Notes under the pieces: model-generated
Told to the model about the DNA's origin: nothing
The model's input: only the letters and a program-made list of their open reading frames with translations
The model's database searches: none
Program-made: the position numbers and the translations under genes
Source of the DNA: Actinomycetota bacterium
GTDB lineage: Bacteria > Actinomycetota > Actinomycetes > Actinomycetales > Dermatophilaceae
Reading direction: 5' to 3'
DNA: 64,000 bases
NCBI GenBank assembly: GCA_020161845.1
Contig: JAIUNK010000001.1
Span: 62,001 to 126,000 of the forward strand
Shown here: positions 36,320 to 56,779 of the stretch, in pieces
How the letters are laid out: every line of letters begins with the position of its first letter
Position numbering within the stretch: the first letter of the stretch is position 1

Positions 36320-36368
36320 CCAGGTCTCCGTCCCCGCCGGATCCCCGGCTCCACCGAAAGGACACGCA

Positions 36369-37691
36369 ATGAAGCGAAACATGGGCGTGACGCTCGTCGC
36401 AGCCGCGGCGACGCTAACCCTCGCCCTGACTGCCTGCTCCAGCGCAGGTTCGGCTCCCTCGGCCGGCGGCTCGAGCGCCGCGAGCGAGCCGAAGACGCTG
36501 ACCATCTGGGACTACGAGAGTGACGAGTCGGCGATGGGCCAGGCCTGGGCGAAGGCCGTCGAGATCTTCAAGGCCAAGCACCCCGACGTCACCGTCAAGG
36601 AGGAGGCGCAGACCTTCGAGCAGATCCAGAAGAACGCCAAGATCGTGCTCACCGGCGACTCCGTGCCCGACGTCATGGAGTACAACAAGGGCAACGCCAC
36701 CGCCGGCCAGCTGGCCGCGCAGGGCCTGATCACCCCGCTCACCGACGCCGCCAAGCAGTACGGCTGGGAGAGCAAGCTCGCCGGCTCGCTGGCCACCACG
36801 GCGAAGTACAACGACAAGGGCCTGATGGGCTCGGGCGAGTGGTACGGCGTCCCGAACTACGGCGAGTTCGTCGGGGTCTACTACAACAAGGACCTGTTCG
36901 CGAAGTACGACCTGCAGGTGCCGACCACCATGGACGAGTTCGTGAAGGTCATGGACACCTTCAAGGCCAAGGGCGTCACCCCGCTGGCGACCGCCGGCGC
37001 GGAGTACCCGCTCGGCCAGCTCTGGTACGAGCTCGTGCTGGCGAACGCCGACCGGTCCTTCGTGAACGACTACCAGCTGTTCGCCAACGACGTGGACTTC
37101 CAGGGCGCCCAGATGACCGCGGGTACCACCGCGCTGAAGGACTGGATCTCCAAGGGCTACATCGACAAGAACGTGGCCGCGCTGAAGGCCGAGGACATGG
37201 GCGTGTCCTTCATCAAGGGCAAGTACCCGATGATGGTCTCCGGCTCCTGGTGGTTCGGCCGCCTGGCCACCGAGATGAAGGCCGACTGGGGCATGTTCAC
37301 CTTCCCGGGCAACGCCCTGCACCCGGGCTCGTCCGGCAACATCTGGGTGATCCCGACCAAGGCGAAGTCGCCCGAGCTGGCCAAGGAGTTCATCGACATC
37401 ACGCTGAGCCCCGAGGTGCAGAACGTGCTGGCAGAGAAGGGTGGCCTCCCGGTCGCCGGTGACACCTCCGTGATCACCGACGCGAAGGTCAAGGAGCTCA
37501 CCACGAACTTCGACTCGATCCTCAAGCAGGACGGGCTGGCGTTCTACCCCGACTGGCCGGTGCCGGGCTACTACGACGTGATCGTGGCGCAGCTCCAGGC
37601 CCTCGCCAACGGCAACAAGGACGTCCCGGCGACCCTCGAGGGCCTCGGCAAGGCCTACGCCCAGGGCAAGGACGACCTGCTCAACGGCTGA
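36369..37691 (+). CDS. ABC sugar-binding lipoprotein
   Basis: This 440-residue extracytoplasmic solute-binding protein of the family 1 (maltose-type) group has a lipobox in LTLALTACSS. The mature domain contains LTIWDYESDES, PDVMEYNKGN, YGVPNYGEFVGVYYNKDLF and MMVSGSWWFG, typical of oligosaccharide binders. The ATG at 36369 follows GAAAGGA. It delivers substrate to the two permeases downstream. No ATPase gene is in the operon, so a shared MsiK-type ATPase is expected. Confidence 0.9.
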   Translation: MKRNMGVTLVAAAATLTLALTACSSAGSAPSAGGSSAASEPKTLTIWDYESDESAMGQAWAKAVEIFKAKHPDVTVKEEAQTFEQIQKNAKIVLTGDSVPDVMEYNKGNATAGQLAAQGLITPLTDAAKQYGWESKLAGSLATTAKYNDKGLMGSGEWYGVPNYGEFVGVYYNKDLFAKYDLQVPTTMDEFVKVMDTFKAKGVTPLATAGAEYPLGQLWYELVLANADRSFVNDYQLFANDVDFQGAQMTAGTTALKDWISKGYIDKNVAALKAEDMGVSFIKGKYPMMVSGSWWFGRLATEMKADWGMFTFPGNALHPGSSGNIWVIPTKAKSPELAKEFIDITLSPEVQNVLAEKGGLPVAGDTSVITDAKVKELTTNFDSILKQDGLAFYPDWPVPGYYDVIVAQLQALANGNKDVPATLEGLGKAYAQGKDDLLNG

Positions 37692-37754
37692 ACACGGCGT
37701 GCGGGGTGGGCCAGGCGCCCACCCCGCCCCGGTTCGCACGACAGCGAGGAAGAG

Positions 37755-38684
37755 ATGGCTACCACCGACACGACAACGAGGCGCAGGGCCACCTGGGTCC
37801 CCTACCTGCCGTACCTGATCCCCGGCGCGCTCGCCTTCCTGCTGGTCATCGGCTACCCGCTGGTGATGAACGTCTACTACAGCCTGTTCAAGTGGAAGGG
37901 CGGCCTGGCGCCGATGCGCTGGTACGGTCTGGGCAACTACGCCGACCTGCTGGCCGACGAGGCCTTCTGGACGTCGTTCCGCAACTCGATCTCGATGGTC
38001 GTGGCGATGGTCGTCGTGCCGACCGTGATCGGGCTCGTCCTGGCCGCGGTGCTCTTCGACTACCTCGGACGGCGGTTCGGTGCCCGCGTCGCCTCGGTGC
38101 TGCGGGCCACCTACTACCTGCCGCAGATCCTGCCGGTCGCGGTGGCGGGCGTGGTGTGGAACTGGATCCTGAACGCCCAGGACGGCGCGGTCAACGTCAT
38201 CCTCACCAACCTCGGCGTGACCGATCCGCCCGACTGGCTCGGCAACCCGCAGCTCGCGATGCCGAGCGTCATGCTGGTGCTGATCTGGGTGCAGATCGGC
38301 TACCCCGTGGTGATCTTCATGGCCGCCCTCCAGCGGGTCGACCCCGAGCTGTACGAGGCCGCGGAGCTCGACGGCGCCAACTGGTGGGCCCGGCTGCGCG
38401 CGATCACCCTGCCGCAGATCAAGCCGGAAACCTTCGTGGTCACGCTGACCTGCACGGTCGCGGCACTGAAGGTGTTCGCCCCGGTCTACGTGCTCACCCG
38501 CGGCGGCCCCGAGGGGACGACGCTGGTGCCCAGCTACTACTCGTTCCTCAACTTCTTCGACAAGTCGAAGGTGGGCTACGGGGCAGCCGTGGCCACCGTC
38601 CTCACCATCGTGATCATCATCGTCGCCACCGTCATCCTGCAGTTCCAGGCGCGGGCCGAGCGGCGCGAGAGGGAGGGACGCTGA
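37755..38684 (+). CDS. ABC sugar permease (first membrane subunit)
   Basis: This 309-residue MalF-type permease has about six membrane helices and the cytoplasmic EAA loop YEAAELDGANWWARLRAITLPQ near residues 200-221. An AGGAAGAG site precedes the ATG. The stop overlaps the second permease start. Confidence 0.92.
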   Translation: MATTDTTTRRRATWVPYLPYLIPGALAFLLVIGYPLVMNVYYSLFKWKGGLAPMRWYGLGNYADLLADEAFWTSFRNSISMVVAMVVVPTVIGLVLAAVLFDYLGRRFGARVASVLRATYYLPQILPVAVAGVVWNWILNAQDGAVNVILTNLGVTDPPDWLGNPQLAMPSVMLVLIWVQIGYPVVIFMAALQRVDPELYEAAELDGANWWARLRAITLPQIKPETFVVTLTCTVAALKVFAPVYVLTRGGPEGTTLVPSYYSFLNFFDKSKVGYGAAVATVLTIVIIIVATVILQFQARAERREREGR

Positions 38685-39583
38685 TGTCCACCACCACCGC
38701 AACCACGCCGGTCGTCGTGAAGGGCACGGCCGTGCCGGGCAACAAGGTGGACGCGCGCCTGCACCGGGGGGTGGGACGCTGGTTCGTCCTGGCCGCCGCC
38801 GGGCTGTTCGCGCTGGCCATGCTCGCCCCGTTCGTGATCATGGCGATGAACGCCTTCAAGTCCTCGGCCGACTACTCCCAGAACGGGCCGCTCAGCCTGC
38901 CGACGGCCTTCTACACCGACGGCCTGGTCAACTTCTGGAACCGCACGCAGTTCCCGCTGAAGCTGCTCAACTCGATCATGATCTCGGGGCTGGTGGCCGT
39001 GTTCGGCACCTTCCTCTCCCTGATCACCGCCTACGCGATCGGCATCGGGCGGGTGAAGGGCAGGGTGTGGATCATCGCGGTGTTCCTGATCGCCAACATG
39101 CTGCCGCAGGAGGCGATCATCTACCCGCTGTTCACCATGGCCAACGCGGTCGGGCTGTCGAACTCGCAGTGGTCGGTGATCATCATCTTCACCGTGATCC
39201 AGTCCGCCTTCGGCATCTACCTGCTGTCCTCGGTGCTGAGCACCTTCCCGGTGGAGCTCCTCGAGGCCGCGGCACTCGACGGGGCGGGACGGTTCCGCAT
39301 CCTGTGGTCGGTGGTCTACCCGATCCTGCGGCCCACGCTCGGCGTGCTGATGGTGTTCTTCTTCATCTGGACGTGGAACGAGTTCTTCATCCCGCTGGTG
39401 ATGCTCACCTCGAACGCCACCCAGACCGTCCCGATCGCGCTCGCCTCGCTGCAGGGCGACCGGATGATGGACGCCCCCACGACCAACGCCGGGGCCCTGG
39501 TCTCGCTGCTGCCGGCGCTGCTCTTCTTCCTCATCTTCCAGCGGACCCTCACCCGCGGCGTCACCGCCGGCGCGGTGAAGTGA
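38684..39583 (+). CDS. ABC sugar permease (second membrane subunit)
   Basis: This 299-residue MalG-type permease has about six membrane helices and the EAA loop LLEAAALDGAGRFRILWSVVYP near residues 195-216. TGATG overlap with the first permease shows coupling. The partner ATPase is missing from the locus. Confidence 0.92.
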   Translation: MSTTTATTPVVVKGTAVPGNKVDARLHRGVGRWFVLAAAGLFALAMLAPFVIMAMNAFKSSADYSQNGPLSLPTAFYTDGLVNFWNRTQFPLKLLNSIMISGLVAVFGTFLSLITAYAIGIGRVKGRVWIIAVFLIANMLPQEAIIYPLFTMANAVGLSNSQWSVIIIFTVIQSAFGIYLLSSVLSTFPVELLEAAALDGAGRFRILWSVVYPILRPTLGVLMVFFFIWTWNEFFIPLVMLTSNATQTVPIALASLQGDRMMDAPTTNAGALVSLLPALLFFLIFQRTLTRGVTAGAVK

Positions 39584-39611
39584 CCGGCCACCACCGAATC
39601 GAAAGACGCCC

Positions 39612-41888
39612 ATGAAGTTCACCGACGGGTACTGGGCCATCCGGCCCGAGTACACCCCCCTGTACGCGGTCGAGGTCGACGACGTCCGCATCGACCCGGC
39701 CGCCGGCACCATGACCGTGTACGCGCCGACGTCCCGGATCCGGGGCCGCGGTGACGTGCTCAACCGCCCGATGCTCACCATCACCTACGCGTCGCCCGCG
39801 CCCGGGGTGATCAGCACCCGCATCGTCCACCACGACGGACGGCGGCCCGTCGGCCCGTCCTTCGCCCTGCACCGCCGCGAGGGCTTCGTGCCGGAGGTGG
39901 AGCTGGGCGAGGACGTCGCCGTGCTGCGCTCCGGCGAGCTGGAGGTCCGGGTGCCGCGGCGCGGCTCGTGGCGGGCGGACTTCGTCTCCGGGGGACGGGT
40001 GCTGACCTCCTCGCTGGCCAAGTCGGTCGGCGCCATGCAGCACAGCGACGGCCGCGAGTTCGTGCACGAGCAGCTCTCGCTCGAGCCGGGGGAGCAGGTG
40101 TACGGCCTCGGCGAGCGGTTCGGCGCCTTCACCAAGAACGGCCAGGTCGTCGACATCTGGAACGAGGACGGGGGCACCTCCAGCGAGCAGGCGTACAAGA
40201 GCGTCCCGTTCTACCTGACCAGCCGTGGCTACGGCGTCTTCACCGACCATCCCGAGCGCGTCTCCTACGAGGTGGGCTCGGAGGTGAACACCCGCGTCCA
40301 GTTCTCGGTGGAGGGGCAGTCGCTGTCCTACCACGTGATCGCCGGGCCCACCCCCAAGGATGTACTGCGCCGCTACACCGCGCTCACCGGACGCCCGGCG
40401 CGCCTGCCGGCCTGGTCGTTCGGGCTGTGGCTGACCACGTCGTTCACCACCAGCTACGACGAGGCGACCGTCTCGAGCTTCATCGACGGCATGGCCGAGC
40501 GCGAACTGCCGCTGTCGGTGTTCCACTTCGACTGCTTCTGGATGCGCGAGTACCAGTGGTGCGACTTCGAGTGGGACCCGCGCACCTTCCCCGACCCGGT
40601 CGGCATGCTCGCCCGGCTGAAGGAGAAGGGGGTGCGCATCTGCGTGTGGATCAACCCCTACATCGCACAGCGCTCCGCGCTGTTCGCCGAGGGCGCGGAG
40701 AAGGGCTACCTGCTGCATACCACGTCCGGCGACGTGTGGCAGTGGGACAAGTGGCAGGCCGGCATGGGGCTGGTGGACTTCACCAACCCGGAGGCCCGCG
40801 CCTGGTTCCAGGGCAAGCTGAAGGTGCTGCTCGACCAGGGCGTGGACGCGTTCAAGACCGACTTCGGCGAGCGCATCCCCGCCACGGACGTCGCCTGGCA
40901 CGACGGCTCCGACCCGCAGCGGATGCACAACTACTACGCGCACCTCTACAACAGCTGCGTCCACGAGCTGCTCGTGGCCGAGCGCGGCGAGGGCGAGGCC
41001 GTCCTCTTCGCGCGCTCCGCCACGGCCGGCGGCCAGCAGTTCCCCGTCCACTGGGGCGGCGACTGCGACTCCACCTACGCCTCGATGGCCGAGTCGCTGC
41101 GGGGCGGGCTGTCGCTGGCCCTGTCCGGGTTCGGCTACTGGAGCCACGACATCGGCGGGTTCGAGGGCACCCCGGACACGGGCGTGTTCAAGCGGTGGCT
41201 GCCCTTCGGGCTGCTCTCCTCGCACTCCCGGCTGCACGGGTCCGGGTCGTACCGGGTGCCGTGGGCCTTCGACGAGGAGGCCGTGGAGGTCACCCGCCGG
41301 TTCACCCGGCTGAAGCTCTCGCTGATGCCCTACCTGGGCGGGATCGCCGCGCAGGCCAGCGACGAGGGCATCGCGATGATGCGCCCGATGGTGCTGGAGT
41401 TCCCGCAGGACCGTGGCACCCACACCGTCGACACCCAGTTCATGCTCGGCGACGCGCTCTGCGTCTCCCCGGTGTTCCGGGCCGACGGGGTGGGGGAGAC
41501 CTACCTGCCGGCCGGCCGGTGGACGCACCTGCTCGACGGCTCGGTGGCCGAGGGGCCGGCCTGGACGTCGCGCACCTACGGCTTCGACTCCCTCGGGGTG
41601 TACGTGCGGCCCGGCACGGTGCTGCCGGTCGGCGCGGTGCAGGACAGCCCCGAGTACGCATGGGCCGAGGACGTGACGCTGCGGCTCTACGAGCTCCCGG
41701 ACGGCTACGACCGCACGCTGGTCGTGCCCGGGGGAACCGGGAGCGCGGCCACCTTCCGGGTGCGGCGCAGCGGCGCGGAGGTCGTCGTGAGCAGTGACGA
41801 CGCCCCCGCCGGCTGGTCGGTCGCGGTCGCGGGCGGCGCGCCGTCGGCCACCGCGCACGGGCCGGGCACCGTGCGGGTGGAGGCCTGA
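39612..41888 (+). CDS. yicI: GH31 alpha-xylosidase (YicI type)
   Basis: This 758-residue enzyme releases alpha-linked xylose from xyloglucan fragments such as isoprimeverose. The catalytic nucleophile Asp is about residue 417 in [10 protein letters not shown] and the acid/base Asp about 484 in HWGGDCDS. The adjoining segments ([59 protein letters not shown]) match the YicI branch rather than alpha-glucosidases. No signal peptide, so it acts on imported sugar. The following GH1 gene is one base downstream. Confidence 0.9.
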
Positions 41889-41889
41889 G

Positions 41890-43317
41890 GTGGACGCGGT
41901 GACCTTCGGCCCGGGGTTCCGGTTCGGCTCGGCGACCGCTGCCTACCAGATCGAGGGGGCGGCGTCCGAGGACGGCCGCGGACCCTCGATCTGGGACACC
42001 TACAGCCACACCCCCGGCGCCACGGAGTACGGCGACACCGGGGACGTGGCCTGCGACCACTACCACCGCTGGCGCGAGGACCTCGGGCACATCACCGCCC
42101 TCGGGCTGGACTGCTACCGGCTGTCGATCTCCTGGCCGCGGGTGCAGCCGGGGGGCACCGGGGCGCTGAACGAGGCCGGCGTCGCGTTCTACCGCGACCT
42201 GCTGGACGCCCTCCGGGCGGCCGGCGTCGAGCCGTGGGTGACGCTCTACCACTGGGACCTCCCCCAGGAACTGGAGGACGCCGGCGGCTGGGCGAACCGC
42301 GACACCGCGCTGGCCTTCGCCGAGTACGCGCGGCTGATGGCCACCGAGCTCGGCGAGCGCGTGCACACCTGGACGACCCTGAACGAGCCGTGGTGCTCCG
42401 CCTACCTCGGGTACGCCTCCGGCGTCCATGCGCCCGGGCGCACCGAGCCGGTGGCAGCGCTGCGGGCCGTCCACCACCTCAACCTCGCGCACGGCCTGGC
42501 CGCCGCGGCCATCCGCGACGTGCTCGGCGCGCAGTCACGGGTGTCGGTCACCCTCAACCTGCACGCGCTGCGCGCGGCCGACCCGGGCAGCGCGGCCGAC
42601 CTCGACGCGGTCCGCCAGATCGACGCGGTGGGCAACCGGGCGTTCACCGGGCCGATGCTGGAGGGCGCCTACCCCGACGACCTGCTGGCCGACACCGCCG
42701 GGCTCACCGACTGGGACTTCGTCCTGCCGGGCGACCTGGCGGCGATCCGGCAGCCGCTCGCGGCCCTGGGCGTCAACTACTACGCCACGACGATGGTCCG
42801 CCACGCCCCGGACGGCGACACGACCTCCGACAACTCCGGGCACAGGGAGTCCGCGTCCTCGCCCTGGGTCGGGGCCGACCGGGTCGCCTTCGTCACCGAG
42901 CCCGGGCCCCACACCGAGATGGGCTGGAACATCGCCCCCGAGGGGCTGACCACGCTGCTGCTCGACCTCCACCGGCGCTACCCCGGGCTGCCGCTGGTGA
43001 TCACGGAGAACGGCGCGGCCTTCGACGACCACGTGGACGCGGACGGCCGCGTCCGCGACGTCCAGCGGGTGTCCTACGTGCACGACCACCTCGCCGCCGT
43101 GGCCGCGGCGATGGACGCCGGGGCCGACGTGCGCGGCTACTTCCTGTGGTCCCTGCTGGACAACTTCGAATGGGCGTGGGGCTACTCGCGGCGCTTCGGC
43201 ATCATCCGGGTGGACTTCGACACCCTGGAACGCGCCTGGAAGGACTCGGCGCACTGGTACGCCCGGCTGCTCGCCGAGCGGACACTGCCCCCGGTGTCGG
43301 CGGCCGGTCCCGCCTGA
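41890..43317 (+). CDS. GH1 beta-glucosidase
   Basis: This 475-residue TIM-barrel glycosidase has the acid/base Glu about residue 166 ([11 protein letters not shown]) and the nucleophile Glu about 373 ([10 protein letters not shown]). The N-terminal signature [15 protein letters not shown] and the C-terminal [21 protein letters not shown] are standard. It lacks a signal peptide. With the alpha-xylosidase it could split imported isoprimeverose-type disaccharides to glucose and xylose. GTG 41890 is one base after the previous stop; GTG 41899 is also possible. Confidence 0.92.
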
Positions 43318-43346
43318 GCGGCCTCTGCGGCGGCACAATCGGGGGC

Positions 43347-44165
43347 ATGCACGCCGCCGCCTACCTGCCCGCCATCATGGACGCCCTCGGCCGGGAGTAC
43401 CCGCACGGCTGGCGGCACTCGGCCGCCGGGCCGGTCGTGCTGGAACCCCGCCGGGCCCACCCGGCCTTCCACGGCTGCTACGACTGGCACTCCGCCGTGC
43501 ACATGCACTGGGCGCTGGTGCGCCTGCTGCGGGACGGGACGGACGCCCCCGGCGCCCGGGCGCTGCTGGACGACCACCTGAACCCGGACGCGATCGCCGG
43601 CGAGCTGGCCTACCTCGCCGCGGACCCGCTGTTCGAGCGTCCCTACGGCTGGGGCTGGGCGCTGGAGCTGGCGGAGGAGGTGACCGGCTGGGACGACCCG
43701 GACGCGACCCGCTGGGCCGCGGCGCTGCGGCCCCTCGCCGACCTGCTGGCCGCGCGGTTCGTCGGCTGGCTGCCCGGCATGGCCCGTCCCGTGCGGGCGG
43801 GGATGCACCTCAACAGCGCCTTCGGGCTCACGCGGGCCCTGCGCTGGGCACGCCGCAGCGAGCGGGACGGGGATCCCGCGCTGCTGGCGGCCGTCACCGA
43901 CGCCGCGTCCCGCTGGTACGGCACCGACGCCGGCTACGACAACCGCTGGGAGCCCGACGGCTGGGACTTCCTCTCCCCCGGGCTGGCGGAGGCCGACCTG
44001 ATGGCGGGACTGCTGCCGTCCCCGCGGTTCGAGGAGTGGCTGGACGCCTTCCTGCCGTCCCTTGCTGCCGGCGAGCTCGGCGCCTGGGCCGAACCGGTGG
44101 CCGGTGGTGACCGCAGCGACGGGCAGGTGGCCCACCTCGACGGGCTCAACCTCCACCGCGCCGGG
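43347..44165 (+). pseudogene. DUF2891 protein, 3' end missing at the join to foreign sequence
   Basis: The first about 273 residues follow the DUF2891 pattern (RRAHPAFHGCYDWHSAVHMHW near the start; GWLPGMARPVRAGMHLNSAF; PDGWDFLSPGLAEADLM; VAHLDGLNLHRA). DUF2891 proteins usually have 330-350 residues, and the match stops exactly where the base composition falls (about 44161-44171). The reading frame then runs into AT-richer sequence without family similarity. The coding is intact before the join, so this is probably a full gene cut by the assembly, not a decayed one. A CACAAT box 7 bases before the ATG suggests a leaderless start. Confidence 0.8.
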
Positions 44166-44798
44166 GTGCTCAAAATACGTGTACTCCCCGTTTCGATAAA
44201 CAAAGGCCCGGATCGGTTCCAATTCGGAACCGCACGTGCCGACCACGACTCCGGCCCCATTGATGGAACTTGCCTGCGTGAAGGAGAATTCACCCACAGC
44301 AGCATCGGGAAGGGTGACAATGACCCCGTGCTTGGTACGCGTGTACGAATGAAGACGCGTCAGGTCATCGAGCAGATAATACGCCACCACGTCCTCCCGA
44401 TTGTTGACTCCGATAATGCCGGTCACGGGGGCTCCCGGCACATTCACCACCGTCAATCGCTCGTCAGCGAGGATGAACCCCGATTGCAGCAGAAATTCCG
44501 TTTCGGAAGGCTGGGTTGCAAACCCTCCCACCAGGGTTCCCTTATCATTGACTCCCAGCAACTCCGTCCAACCACCTTCCTCGACCGGAAGTTGTCCCGG
44601 GATCGACAGGGCGGTGGCTTCGTATTGTTTGGCGGGCAGGATTTTCACTCCTTGCTCAGCCGGCTTCTTTCCCTCGGCATCCGACCCGGCAAGCCCGGCG
44701 CCACTGATCGCCAGAAGGGTTAGGACGCCGAGCGATAGGGTACGCAGGGCCCGGGTGGGAGAGGAGAAACGTTGGATCGAATGAGAGTGTGACTTCAT
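44165..44798 (-). CDS. Exported HAF-like repeat protein, C-terminus missing
   Basis: About 210 residues start with a signal peptide (MKSHSHSIQRFSSPTRALRT then a hydrophobic run LGVLTLLAISGAGLAG). Repeated units of the kind GVNDKGTLVGGF, GVNNREDVVAYY and SINGAGVVVGTC, plus FVYRNGEYTYFEHPGA, match the HAF/PEP-CTERM-like extracellular repeat proteins. The frame continues into the actinobacterial side without the repeat, so the C-terminus is lost at the join. The function is unknown. Confidence 0.65.
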
Positions 44799-45090
44799 GG
44801 GGTCAAGGTGGAATGCAGTCCCGGCTTTCACGCACCAGAACGACTCCGATTTATTGCGTTGCTGTCTGGCCCCGAGGCAGGAAAGCCAGCGCTCCTAACG
44901 ACCAACTCCCGCCGATTGCTGAAGCACCACGCTTCCCTTTTGGGGATTCACCTCGGTATACGGAATTTCATCTTCAAACCCGCCAACCCGTTTCAAAGTT
45001 CTTCAATCCACTTCACCATGAAGCACGGATACTGCAGAATCTCCAGCCGATCTCCCCGAATGCGTCCCGGCCCGCTCACAACCGTCTAGC

Positions 45091-45834
45091 CTAATGGAAA
45101 TCCCTCGGGAGAAGCCGAAGGAAGGGCCAAGAGCTCACCCGTTTGGACAAGAGAGGGAACGAAACCGCATCCAACGACGGCCTCAAAAACGCGCGTGTCC
45201 GAAAAACTGAAAGCCCACGATTGCGTTCGATTACAAAGAGGAGGTCTCCGGTGACCTCAACATCCAAGGCCTCTCCGTCCAACTGGATATCTGCAAGTCG
45301 GGTGACCTGCTCGGGATAACTGACGTCCACGATGGTTACGCCCCAGTTTTGCGCACAATACGCCCATCCTCCCGAGACGTTCAGGGACCTCATATTGGAG
45401 AACAGTTCCAGTTCCCCCCGCAGTTCCGGCTGCCGCGGATCGGACACATCCAAGAGTTGTAGGCGTGAATAGTTGGCGACATAGGCAAGCCGGTTGGCGA
45501 GGTGTACCGCAGAGGTGCTCCGATGCTGATTCCAGGATGCGATCGGCTCGATGCGGTCCGGGCGGCTGACGTCGACCACTTGAATCGGTTCTTCGAAGAT
45601 CGAGCAATAGACTAGGGAATCGGCGACCGCAGCACCTCTGACCCAGCTGGAGGTGCCATACCGCCCCAACTCCACAGGAAATTGCGGATTAGAGACATCC
45701 ACGATGATCAGACCGGAAGAGTCGGCTAGGTAGGCCCGCCCGGACTGTACGGAGATATCAACGACATTGCCCGGCGTGTCGAAGCTTCCCACTTGTCGGG
45801 GCGCCGAGGGTTGGCTCACGTCGACAATGGTCAT
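45091..45834 (-). CDS. LVIVD-repeat beta-propeller protein, N-terminus missing
   Basis: This is a 247-residue C-terminal part of an LVIVD-repeat protein. Successive units read MTIVDVSQPSAP, GLIIVDVSNPQFP, PIQVVDVSRPDRI, RLQLLDVSDPRQP and GVTIVDVSYPEQV. The apparent start Met is inside the first repeat motif, so the true N-terminus lies upstream and is cut at about 45835. Such proteins are exported in Planctomycetes and Verrucomicrobia; their role is unknown. Confidence 0.7.
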   Translation of the reverse strand: MTIVDVSQPSAPRQVGSFDTPGNVVDISVQSGRAYLADSSGLIIVDVSNPQFPVELGRYGTSSWVRGAAVADSLVYCSIFEEPIQVVDVSRPDRIEPIASWNQHRSTSAVHLANRLAYVANYSRLQLLDVSDPRQPELRGELELFSNMRSLNVSGGWAYCAQNWGVTIVDVSYPEQVTRLADIQLDGEALDVEVTGDLLFVIERNRGLSVFRTRAFLRPSLDAVSFPLLSKRVSSWPFLRLLPRDFH

Positions 45835-45839
45835 TCGTC

Positions 45840-46092
45840 CTGGCCCTCCCCACTGTCGGGCGTGAAGCAGATCCAGGCCCCAGTCTTATTCGCGTGGGGC
45901 GGCCAGGATGACCGGATTGATCCCGCCGACGGCCATCGGTTTGTCGAGGCGCTGCAACGGGAAGGCAAGGTGCACCGGTCCATCTTCGAGGCGGACGAGG
46001 GACACGGATTCGAGTCGCCCGCCAACGTCGAAGAGTTCTTCGGGGCCGTGGAGGGCTTTGTGGCCGAGCACCTCCGAATCAGCGGCCAGTAG
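45840..46092 (+). CDS. C-terminal fragment of an S9 peptidase-like alpha/beta hydrolase
   Basis: About 80 residues begin SPLSGVKQIQAPVLFAWGGQDDRIDPADG and end near GHGFESPANVEEFFGAVEGFVAEHL. This is the last part of a prolyl-oligopeptidase-type catalytic domain, with the catalytic Asp in GGQDDR and His in DEGHGF. The serine nucleophile and everything before are absent. The upstream frame is not homologous. Confidence 0.65.
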
Positions 46093-46293
46093 CCGGACGC
46101 GAAACACAAACGGATTCGACGTTTGGCGGAACGACAGGGAATCAGCGTCAACAAGCTGGTCAAGGAATGGGCCACCGTGGCGCTGGCCCAGCACAAGCAA
46201 CTTGACCTACGAGCGGACCGGCTGCATGCGACTGCGAGACGCAGACTAGCGCAGCAACCAGCCGAAATAGACACTCACTCGCTCCAAACATGA
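46093..46293 (+). CDS. Ribbon-helix-helix (CopG/HicB-like) C-terminal fragment
   Basis: The frame reads [35 protein letters not shown], the pattern of a ribbon-helix-helix antitoxin, without its start codon. It follows the S9 stop directly and its own stop overlaps the sulfatase ATG, so the 3' boundary may be either natural or another join. No toxin gene is visible. Confidence 0.35.
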
Positions 46294-46575
46294 AATCCAT
46301 CCTGCGCCTCGCTTCGCTCATCCTTCCGTGGCTGCTGTGTTTTCATTCACGCGCCCCGGCGGCGGACGGGCCCAATATCGTCGTTTTTCTCGCCGATGAC
46401 GCCGGTTGGGGCGATTTCAGCCAGTCCGGGAACCGGCAGGTGAGCACGCCGAACATCGACAGCATCGCGAAAGGCGGCGTTTCACTCGATCGTTTCTTTG
46501 TCTGTCCCGTTTGCTCGCCGACGCGCGCGGAATTCCTCACCGGGCGTTACCATCCCCGTGGCGGCGTTCGCGGTG
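46290..46575 (+). CDS. Sulfatase N-terminal fragment
   Basis: About 95 residues of a type I sulfatase: signal peptide ([20 protein letters not shown]), metal-site stretch [29 protein letters not shown], and the formylglycine motif [13 protein letters not shown] with the Cys that is oxidised in active sulfatases. The next expected residues HPRGGVRGV are present, then the protein changes to unrelated sequence. The remaining three quarters of the enzyme are missing. Confidence 0.75.
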
Positions 46576-47238
46576 TACCTGCCGACGAAGGAGTCCACGG
46601 CCGCCGTCTTGCTGCTGCTCCTGATCGGCGATGTGGTGGGGGTGGCGCGGTACCGGAAGGCCGCCAGTTGGCCGCTGCTGCGCCGACTGCTGCCCAGCGT
46701 GCTCCCCGGGGTGGCCGTCGGTGCGGTGTTCCTGCGCGTCGTGGACGACCACACCCTGCGGCTCTCGATCGGCGTGATCCTCACCGTCATGGTGGCGATC
46801 CAGCTGACGCTGCGGCTGCGCCACCGTCGCCGGACTGACCCCCGCCCGGACGGACCCACCCCACCCGACGTACCGGAGCAACCCCACCGCCTCGCCGGCG
46901 TCGCGGCCGGCATCGCCGCCGGATTCACCACGATGACCGCCAACGCCGCGGGGCCGGTGATGACCCTCTACCTGCTCGCGTGCCGCGTCGACAAGATGGC
47001 GTTCGTCGGGACGAATGCGTGGTTCTTCCTCCTGGTCAACCTCAGCAAGACGCCGTTCAGCGCCGCGCTGGGGCTGTTCCCGGCGTCGACGCTGGCGCTG
47101 ACGGTCGCCTTGGCGCCGTTCGTCCTGGCCGGGACGTGGCTGGGCGTCAAGCTGGTACGTCGGGTCGACCAGCGCACGTTCGACGCGCTGGCGCTGGCCG
47201 CAAGCGCGGTGGCCGCTGTGGCGCTGCTGGTCCGCTGA
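46555..47238 (+). CDS. TauE/SafE-type membrane permease, N-terminus missing
   Basis: These 227 residues are of the sulfite/organosulfonate exporter family: [72 protein letters not shown], and [15 protein letters not shown]. About six helices are seen where the family normally has eight; the first helix and the usual GxGGG-type start are absent because of the join near 46554-46575. The ATG/GTG candidates upstream lie in the sulfatase fragment, so no real start is in the window. Confidence 0.8.
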
Positions 47239-47286
47239 CGCGGTTCCGCTGGTCCGCTGACGCGGTGCTGCTGGTCCGCTGACGCG
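47227..47286 (+). repeat. 22-bp tandem repeat across the tauE stop
   Basis: CTGGTCCGCTGACGCGG occurs at 47227-47243, 47249-47265 and (without the last base) 47271-47286, with a 22-base period. The first copy contains the tauE stop codon. Confidence 0.8.
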
Positions 47287-47440
47287 TTCCCGATCGACGC
47301 GGACGCGGTCCCGCTGGACGTGGACGACCGCTTGAGTCGTGGACGGATGTGTCGATGGGGTGATGCCGGTCCCCTTCCTGCGCGTCGTACGGGCGCCCGC
47401 GCCGGCCCCGCCCGCGCCCCGCAGCGAAGGAGTCCCCTCA

Positions 47441-48202
47441 GTGGACCAGCCCACCATGTTCGTCGAGCCCGCCGAGACCGTCGAGACACTCGACACCGTC
47501 GAGGCCGTCGAGGCCGTCGAGGCTGTCGTCACCGTCGACATCGTCGAGGTCGCGTCCGACGCCGACCTGGCCCAGCAGCCTGACAGCGACCTCGGTCAGC
47601 AGCCCGCCTCCGCGGTCGCCGCGTACTTCGGCGAGACGCAGGAGGAGGCGGAGGCGGCTTTCGTGGCAACCCGCAGCGGCGTCGTCGAGGCCGTCCGCGA
47701 GGTGCTTCCCACGCAGGTCCAGGCCGCCGAAACCGCCCTGGCGGCCCCGGCCGCCGAGGCGTCGACCTATGTGTGGCCAAGCCTGGTCGTCTCCTCGCTC
47801 GCGCTGTCCGCCGAGGGTTACCCGGTGCCGACCGAGGCCGAGGTCGCCGCCCTGTTCGACCGCTGGAACGCCGCGCTGCAGACCGGCGACCCGGCCGAGG
47901 TCGTGGCGCTGTACGCCCCGCAGGCCACGCTGCTGCCGACGCTGTCGCCGACGTTCTGCGACGACCAGCCCAGCAAGATCGAGTACTTCACCGCCTTCCT
48001 GGCCAAGCAGCCCTGGGGGACGGTGACGAACCGGACGATCTACCGCGGTCACGGCATCGCCGTCGACACCGGTCACTACACCTTCCACCTGGCCCTGACC
48101 GGGGATGACGTCGCGGCACGCTACACCTTCACCTACGTCTGGGACGGCGGGCACTGGCTGATCTCCAGCCACCACTCCTCGGCCGAGCCGCAGCGGGCCT
48201 GA
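47441..48202 (+). CDS. NTF2-like (SnoaL/CaMKII-AD type) protein with Val/Glu-rich N-terminal region
   Basis: This 253-residue protein has a C-terminal NTF2-like cone domain (about residues 128-245): VAALFDRWNAALQTGDPAEVVALYAPQATLLPTL, TIYRGHGIAVDTGHYTF, YTFTYVWDGGHWLISSHHSS. This is the SgcJ/CaMKII-association type. The N-terminal 110 residues include a repetitive TVE/AVE stretch (TVETLDTVEAVEAVEAVV). GTG at 47441 with a CGAAGGAG site is preferred over GTG at 47339. The function is unknown. Confidence 0.75.
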   Translation: MDQPTMFVEPAETVETLDTVEAVEAVEAVVTVDIVEVASDADLAQQPDSDLGQQPASAVAAYFGETQEEAEAAFVATRSGVVEAVREVLPTQVQAAETALAAPAAEASTYVWPSLVVSSLALSAEGYPVPTEAEVAALFDRWNAALQTGDPAEVVALYAPQATLLPTLSPTFCDDQPSKIEYFTAFLAKQPWGTVTNRTIYRGHGIAVDTGHYTFHLALTGDDVAARYTFTYVWDGGHWLISSHHSSAEPQRA

Positions 48203-48244
48203 CCGCTGCCCGCCGGGCGAGCGATCAGCCCGAGGGGCTAGCGA

Positions 48245-50269
48245 TCAGCCGATCGGAGCGGGTTCGGTCGCCTCGTCGGTGATCGCCCCGGCGAACTGGC
48301 TGCGGTAGAGCCGCGCGTAGGCGCCGTCCGCCGCGAGCAGCCCCGCGTGCGTGCCCTGCTCGACGATCGCGCCGTCCTCCATCACGAGGATGAGATCGGC
48401 GTCTCGAATGGTAGACAGGCGGTGGGCGATGACGAAGCTGGTCCGGTCGGTACGCAGCGCCGCCATCGCCTGCTGCAGCAGCAGTTCGGTGCGGGTGTCG
48501 ACCGAGCTGGTGGCCTCGTCGAGGATCAGCAGGCTCGGCTGGCTCAGGAACGCCCGCGCGATGGTGATCAGCTGCTTCTCGCCGGCCGACACGTTGGATC
48601 CCTCGTCGTCCAGGACGGTGTCGTAGCCGTCCGGGAGGTGGGCGACGAACCGATCGACGTACGTCGCCTCGGCCGCCGCCCTGATCTCGGCGTCGGTCGC
48701 GCCCGGTTTGCCATAGGCGATGTTGTCGCGGATGGTGCCCTGGAAGAGCCACGTGTCCTGCAGGACCATCCCGATCTGGTCGCGCAGTTCGCGCCGGGGC
48801 ATCGCGGCGATGTCGACGCCGTCCAGGGTGATCCGGCCACCGTCCAGCTCGTAGAACCGCATGATCAGGTTGACCAGCGTGGTCTTGCCCGCCCCGGTCG
48901 GCCCGACGATGGCCACCGTCTGGCCGGGCTCGACGACCAGCGACAGGTCGTGGATCAGCGGCGCGTCGGGTCGGTAGGAGAACGAGACGGCCTCGAACTC
49001 GATCCGGCCGCGGGCCGGGCCGGTGCGTCCGGTGGCGGCCGCCTCCGGGATCTGCTCGGGCGCGTCGAGCAGCTCGAAGACCCGCTCCGCCGACGCGACG
49101 CCGCTCTGCAGCAGGTTCGCCATCGAGGCCACCTGGGTGAGTGGCTGGGTGAACTGGCGGCTGTACTGGATGAAGGCCTGCACCTCGCCCAGGCTCAACG
49201 AGCCGCTGGCCACGCGCAGCCCCCCGACGACGGCGACCCCGACGAAGGACAGGTTCCCGACCAGAAACATCACGGGCATCATCAGGCCCGAGATGAACTG
49301 CGCACCGAATGCGGCGTCGTGCAAGCGCTGATTGGTCGCCTGCATGCTCGCGACGACCTCGCGGCGCCGACCGAAGACCGTCACCAGCTCGTGGCCCGTG
49401 AAGGCCTCCTCGATCGCGCCGTTGAGGTGCCCGGTCTCCGCCCACTGAGCGATGAACTGCCGCTGGCTGCGCTTGCCGATCAGGGCGGTCGCGATGATCG
49501 ACGCCGGGATCGCCACCAGCGCGATTACCGTGAGCAGGGGCGAGACCAGCAGCATCATGACCAGGATGCCGAGGACCGTGACGAGGGAGTTGAGCAGCTG
49601 GCCGAAGGTCTGCTGCAGACTCATACCGAGGTTGTCGATGTCGTTGGTCACCCGCGACAGCAACTCGCCGCGCGGCTGGGCGTCGAAGTAGCTCAGCGGC
49701 AGGGCGTGCAGCTTCTCCTCGACGTCGCGGCGCAGCCGGCGCATCGTCGTCATCGAGATGAGGTTCACCAGCCATCCCGAGGCCCACATGAGTACGGCGG
49801 ACACGGCGTACAGCCCGAGCACGAGCAGCAGCACCCGACCGACGGCGCCGAAGTCGACGCCCTGGCCGGGAACCAGGTCCATCGCGGCGACCATGTCGGC
49901 GAAGGTCCCCTGCCCCTGCGCCCGCAGTCCGGCCACGACCTGGTCCTTGCTCATTCCCGGGGGCAGCTGCCGCCCGATCAGGCCGCTGAAGATGAGGTCC
50001 GTGGCATGGCCGAGCACCCGCGGGCCCACCACCGACAGCGCCACGCTGGCCACGGTCAGCGCCACCGCGACGATGACCTGGGCCCGCATCGGTCCGAGCA
50101 GACCGAGCAGGCGCATTCCGGAGGCGCGGAAGTTCAACGATTTCTGCGCCGGGCCGCCGGCCATCGGGCCGTGGCCGTGACCCGTGGCCGGGCGGCGCGT
50201 GGCCGCCAGCGTCTGACCGGTCGGGTTCTTGGCCGTGCCGCCCTGCGGCGTACCTTCATCCCGTGCCAT
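48245..50269 (-). CDS. ABC exporter half-transporter, second subunit
   Basis: This 674-residue fused membrane/ATPase protein has six membrane helices after a 50-residue hydrophilic N-terminus. The ATPase domain has Walker A GPTGAGKTT, the signature NVSAGEKQLI (Gly-Glu-Lys instead of GGQ), and Walker B LLILDEATSS. With the overlapping first subunit it forms a heterodimeric multidrug-type exporter. The start overlaps the partner's stop by one base. Confidence 0.92.
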   Translation of the reverse strand: MARDEGTPQGGTAKNPTGQTLAATRRPATGHGHGPMAGGPAQKSLNFRASGMRLLGLLGPMRAQVIVAVALTVASVALSVVGPRVLGHATDLIFSGLIGRQLPPGMSKDQVVAGLRAQGQGTFADMVAAMDLVPGQGVDFGAVGRVLLLVLGLYAVSAVLMWASGWLVNLISMTTMRRLRRDVEEKLHALPLSYFDAQPRGELLSRVTNDIDNLGMSLQQTFGQLLNSLVTVLGILVMMLLVSPLLTVIALVAIPASIIATALIGKRSQRQFIAQWAETGHLNGAIEEAFTGHELVTVFGRRREVVASMQATNQRLHDAAFGAQFISGLMMPVMFLVGNLSFVGVAVVGGLRVASGSLSLGEVQAFIQYSRQFTQPLTQVASMANLLQSGVASAERVFELLDAPEQIPEAAATGRTGPARGRIEFEAVSFSYRPDAPLIHDLSLVVEPGQTVAIVGPTGAGKTTLVNLIMRFYELDGGRITLDGVDIAAMPRRELRDQIGMVLQDTWLFQGTIRDNIAYGKPGATDAEIRAAAEATYVDRFVAHLPDGYDTVLDDEGSNVSAGEKQLITIARAFLSQPSLLILDEATSSVDTRTELLLQQAMAALRTDRTSFVIAHRLSTIRDADLILVMEDGAIVEQGTHAGLLAADGAYARLYRSQFAGAITDEATEPAPIG

Positions 50270-52002
50270 CAGGCCGCCTCCTCCGCGCTGAGCTGGGACG
50301 CCACGATCTCGGCGTACGTCGGGCAGGTCGCCACCAGCTCCTCGTGCCGCCCGATCCCGACCACGCGGCCGGCGTCGAGGACGACGATCTGGTCGGCGTC
50401 GGCGATCGTGGAGACCCGCTGGGCCACGATCAGGACCGTGCAGCGCCGGGTCAGCGGCCGCAGCGCCGCGCGCAGCCGGGCGTCGGTGGTCAGGTCGAGC
50501 GCGCTGAAACTGTCGTCGAACAGATAGATCTCCGGCTGGGCGACCAGGGCCCGAGCGATGCACAGGCGTTGTCGCTGGCCGCCGGAGACGTTCGTGCCGC
50601 CCTGGGCGATCGACGCCTCCAGAGCGCCGTCCATCCGCCGCACGAAATCCTCGGCCTGGGCCACGCGCAACGCGGCCCACAGGTCGTCGTCGGTGGCGTC
50701 CGGATTGCCGTAGCGCAGGTTGCTGGCGACGGTGCCGGAGAACAGGTACGGCCGTTGCGGCACGATCGCCACCCGACTCCACAGGTCCGCCGGATCCAGG
50801 TCTCGGACGTCCACGCCGTCGACACACACCCGGCCGCCGGTCGCATCGAACAGCCGCGGGAGCAGGTTGACCAGCGTGGTCTTGCCGGCCCCGGTGCTGC
50901 CGATGACCGCGGTGGTGGTGCCGGGGCGGGCCGTGAACGACACGTCGTGCAACACCGGGGCGTCGGCGCCCGGGTAGGTGAATTCGACCCGGTCCAGCTC
51001 GACAAGACCCTGCGTGTCCCCGATCCGCACGGGCGTCGCGGGCGGCACAACGCTGGAGTCGGTGGTCAGGACCTCCCCGATCCGTTCCGCGGAGACCGCG
51101 GCGCGCGGCACCATCGTGGCCACCATCGTCGCCATCATCACCGACATCAGGATCTGGATGAGATAGCTCATGTACGCGAAGAGGGCGCCCACCAGCATGT
51201 TTCCGCTGTCGACGCGGTGCCCGCCGAACCAGATCACCGCCGTCGTGGACAGGTTCATGATGAGCATGACGATCGGGAACATCAGCACCATCAACCGGCC
51301 GACGCCCAGCCCGGTCTCGGTCAGCGCCTGGTTGGCGGCGGCGAACCGGTCCCGCTCGTGATCCTCCCGCACGAACGCCCGCACCACCCGGATGCCGGTG
51401 ATCTGCTCGCGCATCACCCGGTTCACGGCGTCGATGCGGGTCTGCATCTGCCGGAACAGCGGGACCATCTTGCGCACGACCAGCAGGATCGCGATCGCCA
51501 ACACGGGCACCGCGACCGCGACGAGCCAGGACAGTCCGACGTCCTCGCGCAGCGCCATGATGACGCCGCCGACCATCATGATCGGCGCGCCGACCAGGAT
51601 CACGCAGCCCATGACGACGAGCTGCTGAAGCTGCTGGACGTCGTTCGTGGTGCGCGTGATGAGCGAGGGGGCGCCGAACTGGTTGACCTCGCGGGAGCTG
51701 AACGACATGACGCGCTCGAAGAGGTGCGCCCGAATGTCGCGGCCCATCCCCATCGCCGCGTGGGCGCCGTTCCAGACGGCCGCGATCTGGCACACGGCCT
51801 GGACCACGCTCGCCACGAGCATGATGAGCGAGACGCTCCAGATGTGGCCGGTGTCGCCCTTGGCCACCCCGTTGTCGATGATGTCGGCGTTCAGACTCGG
51901 CAGGAACAGCGACGCGATGGTCGCGATCAACTGCAGCACGACGACGGCAGCCAGATAGCCCCGGTAGGGGCGCAGGTGGTCGCGCAGGACTGTGGTCAGC
52001 AT
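50269..52002 (-). CDS. ABC exporter half-transporter, first subunit
   Basis: This 577-residue subunit has six membrane helices, Walker A GSTGAGKTT, signature NVSGGQRQRL and IYLFDDSFSALD, where the catalytic Glu after Walker B is Asp. One degenerate site of this kind is typical of heterodimeric exporters. The ATG overlaps the TetR gene end by 7 bases. The 1360-residue frame running through both exporter genes is an artefact of a shared frame. Confidence 0.92.
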   Translation of the reverse strand: MLTTVLRDHLRPYRGYLAAVVVLQLIATIASLFLPSLNADIIDNGVAKGDTGHIWSVSLIMLVASVVQAVCQIAAVWNGAHAAMGMGRDIRAHLFERVMSFSSREVNQFGAPSLITRTTNDVQQLQQLVVMGCVILVGAPIMMVGGVIMALREDVGLSWLVAVAVPVLAIAILLVVRKMVPLFRQMQTRIDAVNRVMREQITGIRVVRAFVREDHERDRFAAANQALTETGLGVGRLMVLMFPIVMLIMNLSTTAVIWFGGHRVDSGNMLVGALFAYMSYLIQILMSVMMATMVATMVPRAAVSAERIGEVLTTDSSVVPPATPVRIGDTQGLVELDRVEFTYPGADAPVLHDVSFTARPGTTTAVIGSTGAGKTTLVNLLPRLFDATGGRVCVDGVDVRDLDPADLWSRVAIVPQRPYLFSGTVASNLRYGNPDATDDDLWAALRVAQAEDFVRRMDGALEASIAQGGTNVSGGQRQRLCIARALVAQPEIYLFDDSFSALDLTTDARLRAALRPLTRRCTVLIVAQRVSTIADADQIVVLDAGRVVGIGRHEELVATCPTYAEIVASQLSAEEAA

Positions 52003-52721
52003 GGGGAGGCCTCGGAGCAGAGCGGGGATGGATGGGGGGCCGGCTGGGGTGACTGCGGTGGGGCCGGCAGCCCACCCGCTGGTGGGTGGCTCGATAGGGC
52101 ACCGTCGAGCAGCAGGGCCACGATGCGATCCGGCGCCATGAGGCGGCCGTCGGTGATGCCGCGGTTGCTCCCGGCGAAACACAGATAGCGCATCGCGTCG
52201 ACGAGTTCGTCGACGGGGACGCGCAGTTCGTCCTCGAAGGGGGCGAGGAGCCGCCGGGTGTGCGCCCGGAAATGGGCCGCGCCCAGCGGCTCGGGTGGGT
52301 CGCCGGGGCAGCCGGGGTGCGGGCCATGGGGCGGCGGCCCGAAGACCCCGAGCGGGCCCAGCGTCTCGAAGATCTCGATGAAGCGCTCCCAGAGCAGCGT
52401 CGTGATGGCGAGCAGCGTGTCGCGCAGGGGCTGACCGGCAGGAATGGCGTCCGCGGCGGCGCGGTAGGTGTAGGGGCAGGCGACGGCGCTGATCATCGCC
52501 GTCTGCAAGGCGTCCTTCGTGCCGAAGGCCCGAAAGAGGGTGCCCTCGGCGATCTCTGCGGCGAACGCCAGCTCGCGGGTGCTGGGCATCGCGCCGGTGC
52601 GCCGGACCTGCGCCAACGCGACGTCGATGATGTGGCGGCGCCGCTCCTCCGGGGGCAGCGGATGGGCCCGGGCCCCGTAGGGCCGCGCCGGCGTCGCTCT
52701 CCTGGTCACGCGGCTCATCAT
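51996..52721 (-). CDS. TetR-family regulator of the ABC exporter
   Basis: This is a 241-residue (or 240) repressor. The helix-turn-helix reads STRELAFAAEIAEGTLFRAFGTKDAL at about residues 47-72. A ligand-binding helical domain with a Pro/His-rich loop follows. It lies first in the operon and probably controls itself and the exporter through the palindrome just upstream of its start. The inducer is unknown but probably an exporter substrate. Confidence 0.88.
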   Translation of the reverse strand: MMSRVTRRATPARPYGARAHPLPPEERRRHIIDVALAQVRRTGAMPSTRELAFAAEIAEGTLFRAFGTKDALQTAMISAVACPYTYRAAADAIPAGQPLRDTLLAITTLLWERFIEIFETLGPLGVFGPPPHGPHPGCPGDPPEPLGAAHFRAHTRRLLAPFEDELRVPVDELVDAMRYLCFAGSNRGITDGRLMAPDRIVALLLDGALSSHPPAGGLPAPPQSPQPAPHPSPLCSEASPC

Positions 52722-52724
52722 GGA

Positions 52725-52744
52725 GTGAGTGAGTACTCACTCAC
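52725..52744. promoter_or_regulatory. 20-bp perfect palindromic TetR operator
   Basis: GTGAGTGAGTACTCACTCAC is a perfect 20-base palindrome 4 bases upstream of the TetR start codon. It should overlap the promoter and ribosome site, giving tight autoregulation. Confidence 0.8.
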
Positions 52745-53133
52745 AAACGCGGGGTCGGCATCCTGCCGACCTGCGGTGACGGGGATCCGGGGTCGGACAT
52801 GTTCCGGGGTCGCCGCGCTGGGGCTCACTCGCGGGGGCATCGCCGTGCAGAACCACGCCCGAACCGATATCGCAATGCCCCTACAGCCGCTGCGACCAAC
52901 ACCATCACCGCAGGTCAGAGCGTTGAGCCCGAGCCTGCCCCGGCCATTGCGATATCGGTTCGTGTCACGGTTCGAGGATGCCGTCCCGCATCGCCTGCGG
53001 GCCGCCCTGCGCGGCGGCGCTATCCCAGGGCCGCAGCTGTGGCGCGGGAGCATCCCAGCCCCGGGTGGCGCAGGGCGTGCCGACGCAGGACGCACGTCGT
53101 CACGATCCCACCCACCCCAGCACGAGCGGCGGG
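52745..53133. repeat. 389-base gene-free stretch with an 18-bp inverted repeat
   Basis: No gene is supported here. Eighteen bases at 52860-52877 (CGAACCGATATCGCAATG) recur as their exact complement at 52945-52962, separated by 67 bases. The arms contain GATATC. They could flank a small mobile unit, form a hairpin or be regulator sites. The opposing-strand frames crossing the stretch lack any family motif. Confidence 0.7.
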
Positions 53134-54075
53134 TCAGCCGAGGCCGTTCTTGGTCAACCACTCCTTGGCGACGGCCGCGGGGTCCTTCTTGTCGATGTCG
53201 ACCTGTCCGACCAGGGCGCGCAGCTCGTCGGTCGTCAGCTTGGCCGAGACCCCGTCGAGCGCCGCGGTCACGGTGTCGGTGACGGCCTTCTTCGCCACCA
53301 ACGGCACGACGTTCTGCGTGCCGAACAGTCGCTTGTCGTCCTCCAGGACCACGAAGTTGTTGGCCGTGATCGCCGGGTCGGTGGTGAAGATGTTGGCGGC
53401 CTGGACCTGCCCGTTCTTCAACGCCTGGACCGCGGCCTGGCCGGTCAGCGGGGTGCGGACCTGCTTGAACGTGATCCCGTAGGTCTGGGCCAGCCCCGGC
53501 ACCCCCTGCGGCCGGGTCTTGAACTCATCGGGGGCACCCAAGACCAGGTCGCCGGCCTTGGCCGCCAGGTCGCTCATGGTCTTCAGCTGCAGCCGGTCGG
53601 CGGTCTCCTTGGTGACGGTGATCGAGTCCTTGTCCTCGGCGGCCGACTTCGCCAGCACGGTCAGGTCGGCAGGCAGCAGGGACTTCAGGGCGTCGTAGGT
53701 CTTCGTCGGGTCGTTCTCGGCGAAGTCCTTGTTGTAGAACCGGGCCAGCGCGCCCGTGTACTCCGGGATCACCTGGATCGACCCGTCCTGCATCCCCTTC
53801 ATGTAGGCCTCGCGCGAGCCGATCCGCAGCTTCGTCGAGGCGTTGACGCCCTTCGCCTTCAGCGCCCCCGCGTACAGCTCCGCGAGCAGCGCCGACTCGC
53901 TGAAGTCGGCCGAACCCACCAGCACGGCACCGCCGCCGGTGCCGGTCGCGCCGGTGGCGCCGCCGCTCGTCGTGGTCGCCAGCGGATTGTTGGTGCCGCC
54001 GCCGCAGGCGGCCAGGCTCAGGGTGAGCGCGGCGGCAGCCAGCACGGACAGGATCGGACGGGTCGAGTTGGTCAT
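53134..54075 (-). CDS. Osmoprotectant-binding lipoprotein (OpuCC/OsmF type)
   Basis: This 313-residue substrate-binding protein has a lipobox (LTLSLAACGG). The mature part carries VLVGSADFSESALLAELYAGAL, QVIPEYTGALARFYN and DPAITANNFVVLEDDKRLF, typical of quaternary-ammonium binders for glycine betaine, choline or carnitine. It is the last gene of the four-gene operon, and its ATG overlaps the permease stop. The exact ligand is not decided by the sequence. Confidence 0.88.
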   Translation of the reverse strand: MTNSTRPILSVLAAAALTLSLAACGGGTNNPLATTTSGGATGATGTGGGAVLVGSADFSESALLAELYAGALKAKGVNASTKLRIGSREAYMKGMQDGSIQVIPEYTGALARFYNKDFAENDPTKTYDALKSLLPADLTVLAKSAAEDKDSITVTKETADRLQLKTMSDLAAKAGDLVLGAPDEFKTRPQGVPGLAQTYGITFKQVRTPLTGQAAVQALKNGQVQAANIFTTDPAITANNFVVLEDDKRLFGTQNVVPLVAKKAVTDTVTAALDGVSAKLTTDELRALVGQVDIDKKDPAAVAKEWLTKNGLG

Positions 54076-54860
54076 GACGCTCTCGATTCTCTCGGGGTCG
54101 ACGGATGGCTCGGGGGCGGGACGGAGTTCGTCGCGGTGCCGGCGCCGCGGCGGGTGCGGCTGGTCTGGCGCGCGACGGTACGTCGGGTGCCGCCCAGACC
54201 CGGCGAGACCACGAGCCGGGTCAGTCCGGCCAGGGCCAGGTCCAGCACCAGCGCAAGGGTGGCGACGAGCAGGGCGCCGCCGGCGACCATCGGGTAGTCG
54301 CCGATGTTGAGCCCCTCGGACAGATAGGCGCCCAGGCCGCCGAGGGAGATGTACGCCGCGATCACGGCCGTGCCGACGACCTGCAGGGTCGCGCTTCGGA
54401 CTCCGGAGAGCAACAGCGGCAGAGCACACGGCATCTCGACCCCGAGCAGCACCTGGCGGCCGGTCATGCCCATGCCCTTGGCCGCGTCGCGGGCCGCGGG
54501 GTCGACGGCCTCCACCCCGGCATAGGTGCCGGCGAGCAGCGGCGGCATCGCCAACAGGATGAGCACGATGAGTCCCGGAACCAGGAACGCGGCAGATCCG
54601 CGCAGGTAGGGCCCGAGATAGAGCGCGGCAGCGAAGAGCAGACCGAGGCTGGGGATCGCACGCACCGCGTTGGTCGAGGAGACCAGCCAGCGGGCGCGTC
54701 CGGTGTGCCCGATCCAGAGCCCCAGCGGGATCGCGACCAGGGCCGCGACCAGCAGCGCCAGGAAGGAGTAGCTCAGGTGCTCGCCGAGGCGACTGGGGAT
54801 CCCGTCCGGCCCCGACCAGTGCTCGGGGTCAGTGAGCCAGGCCCAGACCTGCCCGATCAT
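54072..54860 (-). CDS. Osmoprotectant ABC permease (OpuCD-like)
   Basis: This 262-residue permease has about five helices and the EAA-type loop VEAVDPAARDAAKGMGMTGRQVLLGVEMPCALP. Typical segments are AIPSLGLLFAAALYLG and AAYISLGGLGAYLSEG. The C-terminal 50 residues are polar and arginine/proline-rich. Four-base overlaps join it to both neighbours. Confidence 0.88.
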   Translation of the reverse strand: MIGQVWAWLTDPEHWSGPDGIPSRLGEHLSYSFLALLVAALVAIPLGLWIGHTGRARWLVSSTNAVRAIPSLGLLFAAALYLGPYLRGSAAFLVPGLIVLILLAMPPLLAGTYAGVEAVDPAARDAAKGMGMTGRQVLLGVEMPCALPLLLSGVRSATLQVVGTAVIAAYISLGGLGAYLSEGLNIGDYPMVAGGALLVATLALVLDLALAGLTRLVVSPGLGGTRRTVARQTSRTRRGAGTATNSVPPPSHPSTPRESRAS

Positions 54861-56772: not shown

Positions 56773-56779
56773 GCGATGC

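Follow-up and report, generated by a model that had tools for sequence, protein, structure and literature searches.

Gene content of the locus

The window (the whole stretch of DNA analysed here, 64,000 nt) covers positions 62001–126000 of contig C28 (276,559 bp) in assembly G000, which comprises 4,392,256 bases in 82 contigs and is rated 100% complete and 4.4% contaminated. Between a DUF2891 gene and a TauE gene, both truncated, lies a block of ~2.4 kb carrying pieces of five genes: HAF-repeat, LVIVD, S9 hydrolase, HicB-like and sulfatase (Table 1). Its computed GC is 0.59, compared with 0.72 and 0.71 in the 30 kb to its left and right, which bears out the first-pass annotation in describing an AT-richer block between the two flanks.

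Table 1. Features of the window (coordinates are window positions).
Feature	Coordinates	Strand	Evidence or remark
Left half of window	1..44171		Actinobacterium other than the assembly's main organism; part of C28 ~16.3–106.2 kb
DUF2891 gene lacking about 50 residues at its 3' end	43347..44171	+	PF11199 8–274 of 325, E 8.5e-91
Left join, DUF2891 to HAF-repeat gene	44168..44186		DUF2891 profile ends about 44168; HAF match ends 44184–44186
HAF-repeat protein gene, 5' part	44172..44831	-	TIGR02913, 24.1 bits vs cut-off 22.65
LVIVD-repeat protein gene, probably 3' part	45091..45882	-	PF08309, 97.8 bits, three stretches
S9/dienelactone-type hydrolase gene, 3' end (last ~80 residues)	45850..46092	+	PF00326 134–211 of 213, E 2.1e-9
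Internal join, LVIVD/S9 hydrolase	45850..45882		Homology from both sides may overlap; weak
HicB-like gene, 3' part	46096..46293	+	PF05534 29–49 of 51, E 0.0022, 18.3 bits vs cut-off 21: weak, below curated cut-off
Sulfatase gene, 5' part (first ~96 residues)	46290..46577	+	PF00884 1–67 of 301
Right join	46558..46577		20 nt that read as native in two frames: RGGVRGV (sulfatase) and VAAFAVY (TauE)
TauE gene lacking about 45 residues at its 5' end	46558..47238	+	PF01925 (E 2e-32) only from profile position 26
Right half of window	46558..64000		Main organism of the assembly

What is missing from the DUF2891 gene? The PF11199 match runs to residue 274 of the 275 in the frame (window about 44168), and among the 28 other genomes searched the family was found in six, all six matches extending to profile position 324–325. 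The 3' loss that had been placed near 44165 is therefore real and falls at about 44171, the profile stopping at 274 of 325. A second DUF2891 piece is absent from the assembly in searches at E up to 10, and since the missing end was not found there, the left join has no matching half. Directly before the truncated gene, in the genome of the left half, stand a GH31-like and a GH1 glycosidase (window 39612–43317), of which the GH1 enzyme has a Pfam match and the GH31-like one was judged from its translation.

The pieces inside the block are of uneven quality. In the HAF-repeat frame TIGR02913 covers 30 of 39 positions and reaches residue 216 of 220, 4 residues short of the join; the score is a sum to which single stretches each contribute less than the cut-off, and the frame has no Pfam match. 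The LVIVD frame has an ATG (45834) and a stop. Extending the frames into 45850–45882 adds about 2 bits to each of the two matches that meet there (LVIVD 95.4 to 97.8, S9 hydrolase 35.5 to 37.6), a weak gain, and the gain on the LVIVD side suggests that this gene was likely cut upstream. A search for the LVIVD fragment in the genome contigs gave 50 pattern matches, none of which was confirmed, and the single PHROGs match, to the same piece, is weak (E 0.0033). The LVIVD and HAF-repeat pieces share a strand, one gene ending before the next begins, and may form one contiguous stretch; the stop of the HicB-like gene overlaps the sulfatase start (ATGA). Because of these two pairings, the block is counted as at least three source pieces. 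It has no blastn match among plasmids.

The block had been ascribed to Verrucomicrobia/Planctomycetes-type genes, none of them complete. The first part of this description holds for the sulfatase, the sole piece assigned to a lineage: among the best 80 of at least 442 confirmed loci (at least 591 stretches), 79 are titled with Planctomycetota or Verrucomicrobiota taxa, as judged from the names, and one is an ‘uncultured bacterium’. The second part is shown for the sulfatase and the hydrolase and is likely for the remaining pieces.

The right join and the split TauE gene

On the sulfatase side of the right join, 80 homologous loci were compared by tblastn. All 80 gave a hit and in 75 the alignment extended to the final one or two residues of the fragment, with G95 conserved in 74 of 75 homologues and V96 in 72 of 73. 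The register of TauE was read from 10 loci (L012–L021), a set that omits the locus of the window itself, the weak L022 and three matches to which no locus belongs. In this frame V46558 is conserved in 8 of 9 homologues and both F46567 and A46570 in 10 of 10, with P46555 in 0 of 8. As conserved residues of both proteins occur there, the 20 nt at 46558–46577 look native to both genes. The earlier claim that TauE loses its 5' end near 46555 thus stands as to the truncation, the PF01925 match setting in so late in the profile, but not as to the point, as the join is a zone of 20 nt.

But where is the rest of TauE? With the full TauE protein of the same-genus genome G001 as query, residues 5–46 were found on another contig of the assembly, at C27:3877–4002 on the minus strand (E 1.4e-7). 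This piece and the one in the window can be placed on a single set of 10 homologues in a common register and with no gap; on the G001 protein the C27 piece ends A-V-A where the window piece starts V-A. Further along, C27 5.7–14.9 kb (minus strand) carries the genes that lie directly left of the TauE locus in G003, another member of the genus; part of this region also has a 69% match on C38. Given the TauE 5' end and these G003-like neighbours, C27, read in reverse from ~3890 and running into C28 at 46558, is the natural upstream continuation of TauE.

On C27 itself something else adjoins the TauE start, at about 3890. The stretch C27:1–3890 (L174) holds mutY and ftsY, both above an NCBIfam cut-off, along with a long unnamed frame, and in tetranucleotides it correlates with the remainder of C27 at 0.37, for what is a short sample of 3.9 kb. 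From gene content and composition we infer that this extension is foreign; judged from the gene types it looks proteobacterial, and C27 is probably a second chimeric contig of the assembly. As the two parts of TauE lie apart, with different foreign-looking genes adjoining each, a single biological event hardly fits. A reciprocal exchange, with the DUF2891 end now lying beside the TauE start, was considered as well and is out, as there is no second DUF2891 piece and the part of C27 adjoining the TauE start holds other genes.

Probable mixture of two organisms on one contig

Do the two halves of the window belong to the same genome? Profiles of GC and tetranucleotides had been proposed as a check by the first-pass annotation; GC drops in the block, and the tetranucleotide composition of the flanking halves switches at it. 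The tetranucleotide comparison used 6-kb non-overlapping windows and references of equal size, each tested window being left out of its reference. All 14 left windows and 25 of 26 right windows matched their own side, the one exception being a right window that matched the left reference; in a version with overlapping windows the counts were 28/28 and 54/54. Control cuts placed within the right half or within the left half gave 8/13, 7/13, 5/7 and 5/7. Because the control cuts lack a comparable switch, the change is located at the block and does not reflect a general drift along the contig.

The right half fits the main organism of the assembly. From window 48267 onwards it is mostly colinear with G003, from 3.111 to about 3.30 Mb, with a few hits off the diagonal and 65–85% identity over hits longer than 200 nt (the map covers 440 kb of the 3.63-Mb G003 genome, at E 1e-20 and with rows below 150 bits dropped). 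Its composition also correlates better with C27, C42 and C44 than that of the left half does. The order of genes at 46558–52100 varies within the genus: TauE, a SnoaL-type gene and ABC transporter genes here; ABC, TauE, SnoaL in G001; and ABC, SnoaL in G003, where no TauE match exists in the whole genome. Two further features of the right half are recorded here. One is a stretch of low GC (0.58) at window 58576–60500, which adjoins a tRNA-Gly gene (58502–58575). Its two long frames have no Pfam or PHROGs match, the stretch has no match among plasmids, and the sole repeat of the tRNA-Gly region found is a weak 18-nt one (78%) at 60573; it may be a genuine island linked to the tRNA gene or a further misjoin. 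The other lies outside the window at C28:240543–242784 (L046), where two adjacent stretches, in a patch of lower GC, match one site at 3.073 Mb among the G003 stretches compared.

Several single-copy genes occur twice in the assembly, the extra copy lying in the left half of the contig. The assembly has two topA loci, one at C28:44508–47336, in the left half of the contig and outside the window, and one on C44; each of the 28 other genomes has one, double hits there being adjacent pieces. Since tmk and holB follow topA on both C28 and C44, they are doubled too. Two radA genes are present, at C28:85738–87171 (window 23738–25171) and on C50, the other genomes having one in 27 cases and none in one; among the four markers, radA alone falls inside the window. 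All the extra copies lie within C28 16–106 kb. The topA gene of C44 is 82.5–84.8% identical to those of the three genus mates (G001–G003) and groups with them at an SH-aLRT of 100, whereas that of C28 shows 61–63% identity to the copies of the genus and, in a quick tree rooted at the midpoint (30 rows assembled from tblastn pieces), falls outside the family as sampled. When the C28 copy was held with the genus, the AU test did not reject the resulting quick tree (p 0.125), so this test alone does not exclude the gene from the genus. The bin is also large: the three genus mates have genomes of 3.5–3.6 Mb compared with 4.39 Mb for this assembly, or ~0.8 Mb more. The very start of C28 (L034, 1–16300) is again unlike the rest of the contig. 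Its first 1.4 kb encode TrcR (PF06242), which we take to be an alphaproteobacterial family, and a type I restriction system and a DUF2130 gene lie at 7.4–15.5 kb, in DNA of lower GC.

These results bear out the claim that DUF2891 and TauE are not remains of one locus: they are different genes, in stretches of different genomes.

How did the arrangement arise?

The block is almost certainly an artefact of assembly, in a bin that is composite. The doubled topA, tmk, holB and radA and the composition switch indicate that more than one genome contributed to this contig. Of the two genes cut at the outer joins, TauE has its counterpart piece on C27, and none was found for DUF2891. A shared word is present at the right join, where it measures 20 nt, and there is only a hint of one at 45850–45882. 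The split of TauE, the doubled markers, the switch in composition and the overlapping homology at the right join together support the first-pass view of a misassembled contig with two unrelated halves.

What would such a misassembly look like? Words of about 20 nt, identical by chance between unrelated genes, would open a path through the assembly graph, leading from an actinobacterium of another lineage (1–44171) through at least three low-GC gene pieces to TauE in the main actinobacterium (from 46558). C27 would be the true upstream sequence of TauE, itself wrongly extended into DNA of another organism, and the 20-nt joining word would be the trace expected from a de Bruijn graph step with k near 21. 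We infer that a small-k graph step made the joins and that the reads came from a mixed sample. Assemblers that start with small k have been described, as have graphs that are linked through shared k-mers and yield chimeric contigs (PMC7299287). In the GUNC paper, misassembly and mis-binning are both given as sources of chimeric genomes, the former relatively rare and the latter commoner, and 8.0% of metagenome-assembled genomes in GTDB are reported to be contaminated (PMC8201837). Since its authors call misassembly relatively rare, the prior for a chimera within a contig is not high (PMC8201837).

The locus resembles the chimeric metagenome contigs of these sources in uniting fragments of several source genomes in one contig (PMC8201837, PMC7299287). 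It differs in that no fewer than three small pieces separate the two long stretches and that the other half of one join was traced to a second contig. The likeness to a mis-binned, composite genome is also clear, the bin having extra markers and ~0.8 Mb more than its genus mates, but mis-binning alone leaves contigs intact and here the lineage changes within a contig.

Could the chimera have been present before assembly? Chimeric molecules made in the test tube, by whole-genome amplification or by ligation during library preparation, would have been reported faithfully by the assembler. A block that is a mosaic of several short pieces would suit this origin, amplification chimeras are also guided by short shared words, and the results obtained here give no clean separation from a computational misjoin. 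However, a rare molecule would presumably need enough coverage to enter a 277-kb contig, and the 20 nt shared at the right join are a natural length for the words of a graph assembler. This origin is considered very unlikely.

A second possibility is that the chromosome is real: a break would have been patched with several scraps of captured environmental DNA, joining a foreign 90-kb island of actinobacterial core genome to the host. Filler DNA at breaks is a known phenomenon, the two actinobacterial parts have similar GC (0.72 and 0.71), and the AU result leaves room for the C28 topA to belong with the genus. If true, this would be a case of multi-fragment foreign filler DNA captured at a rearrangement breakpoint. 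The price is high, however, as it requires a second topA–tmk–holB and radA set, a TauE gene divided between two contigs, with other foreign genes adjoining each half, and a lost DUF2891 end, and no direct word of 5–15 nt is common to the two ends. We regard this as extremely unlikely. Ordinary horizontal transfer, with a mobile element inserted into a host, would account for the GC drop and the foreign-looking genes, but its probability is negligible: as had been claimed, no recombinase, integrase or transposase is among the families that the block's frames match in Pfam and NCBIfam, no target duplication was seen in the search for direct words of 5–15 nt common to both block ends close to the joins, and there is no empty site, because DUF2891 and TauE on the flanks are unlike genes that come from separate genomes. 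The block thus resembles a genomic island in being a lower-GC stretch with foreign-looking genes, and departs from one in having no mobility genes, no end repeats (direct words) and no common flanking locus.

Consequences for the use of the assembly

A misassembly of this kind is ordinary, and it is important for data quality only. New here are the 5' piece of TauE located on C27, the second copies of marker genes, the composition comparison with its control cuts, and the word of 20 nt at the right join. The locus can also serve as a clean worked example, in which a split gene was followed to both of its contigs, markers are duplicated and the joining word is known. As a data-quality warning, genes across the block are not to be trusted. 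The warning extends beyond the block: the 277-kb contig mixes at least three, perhaps five, source genomes, and the assembly appears to represent its species in a reference collection. Statements on gene content, claims of transfer and trees that use the left 106 kb of C28 (topA, radA and others) under the name of this species would be wrong.
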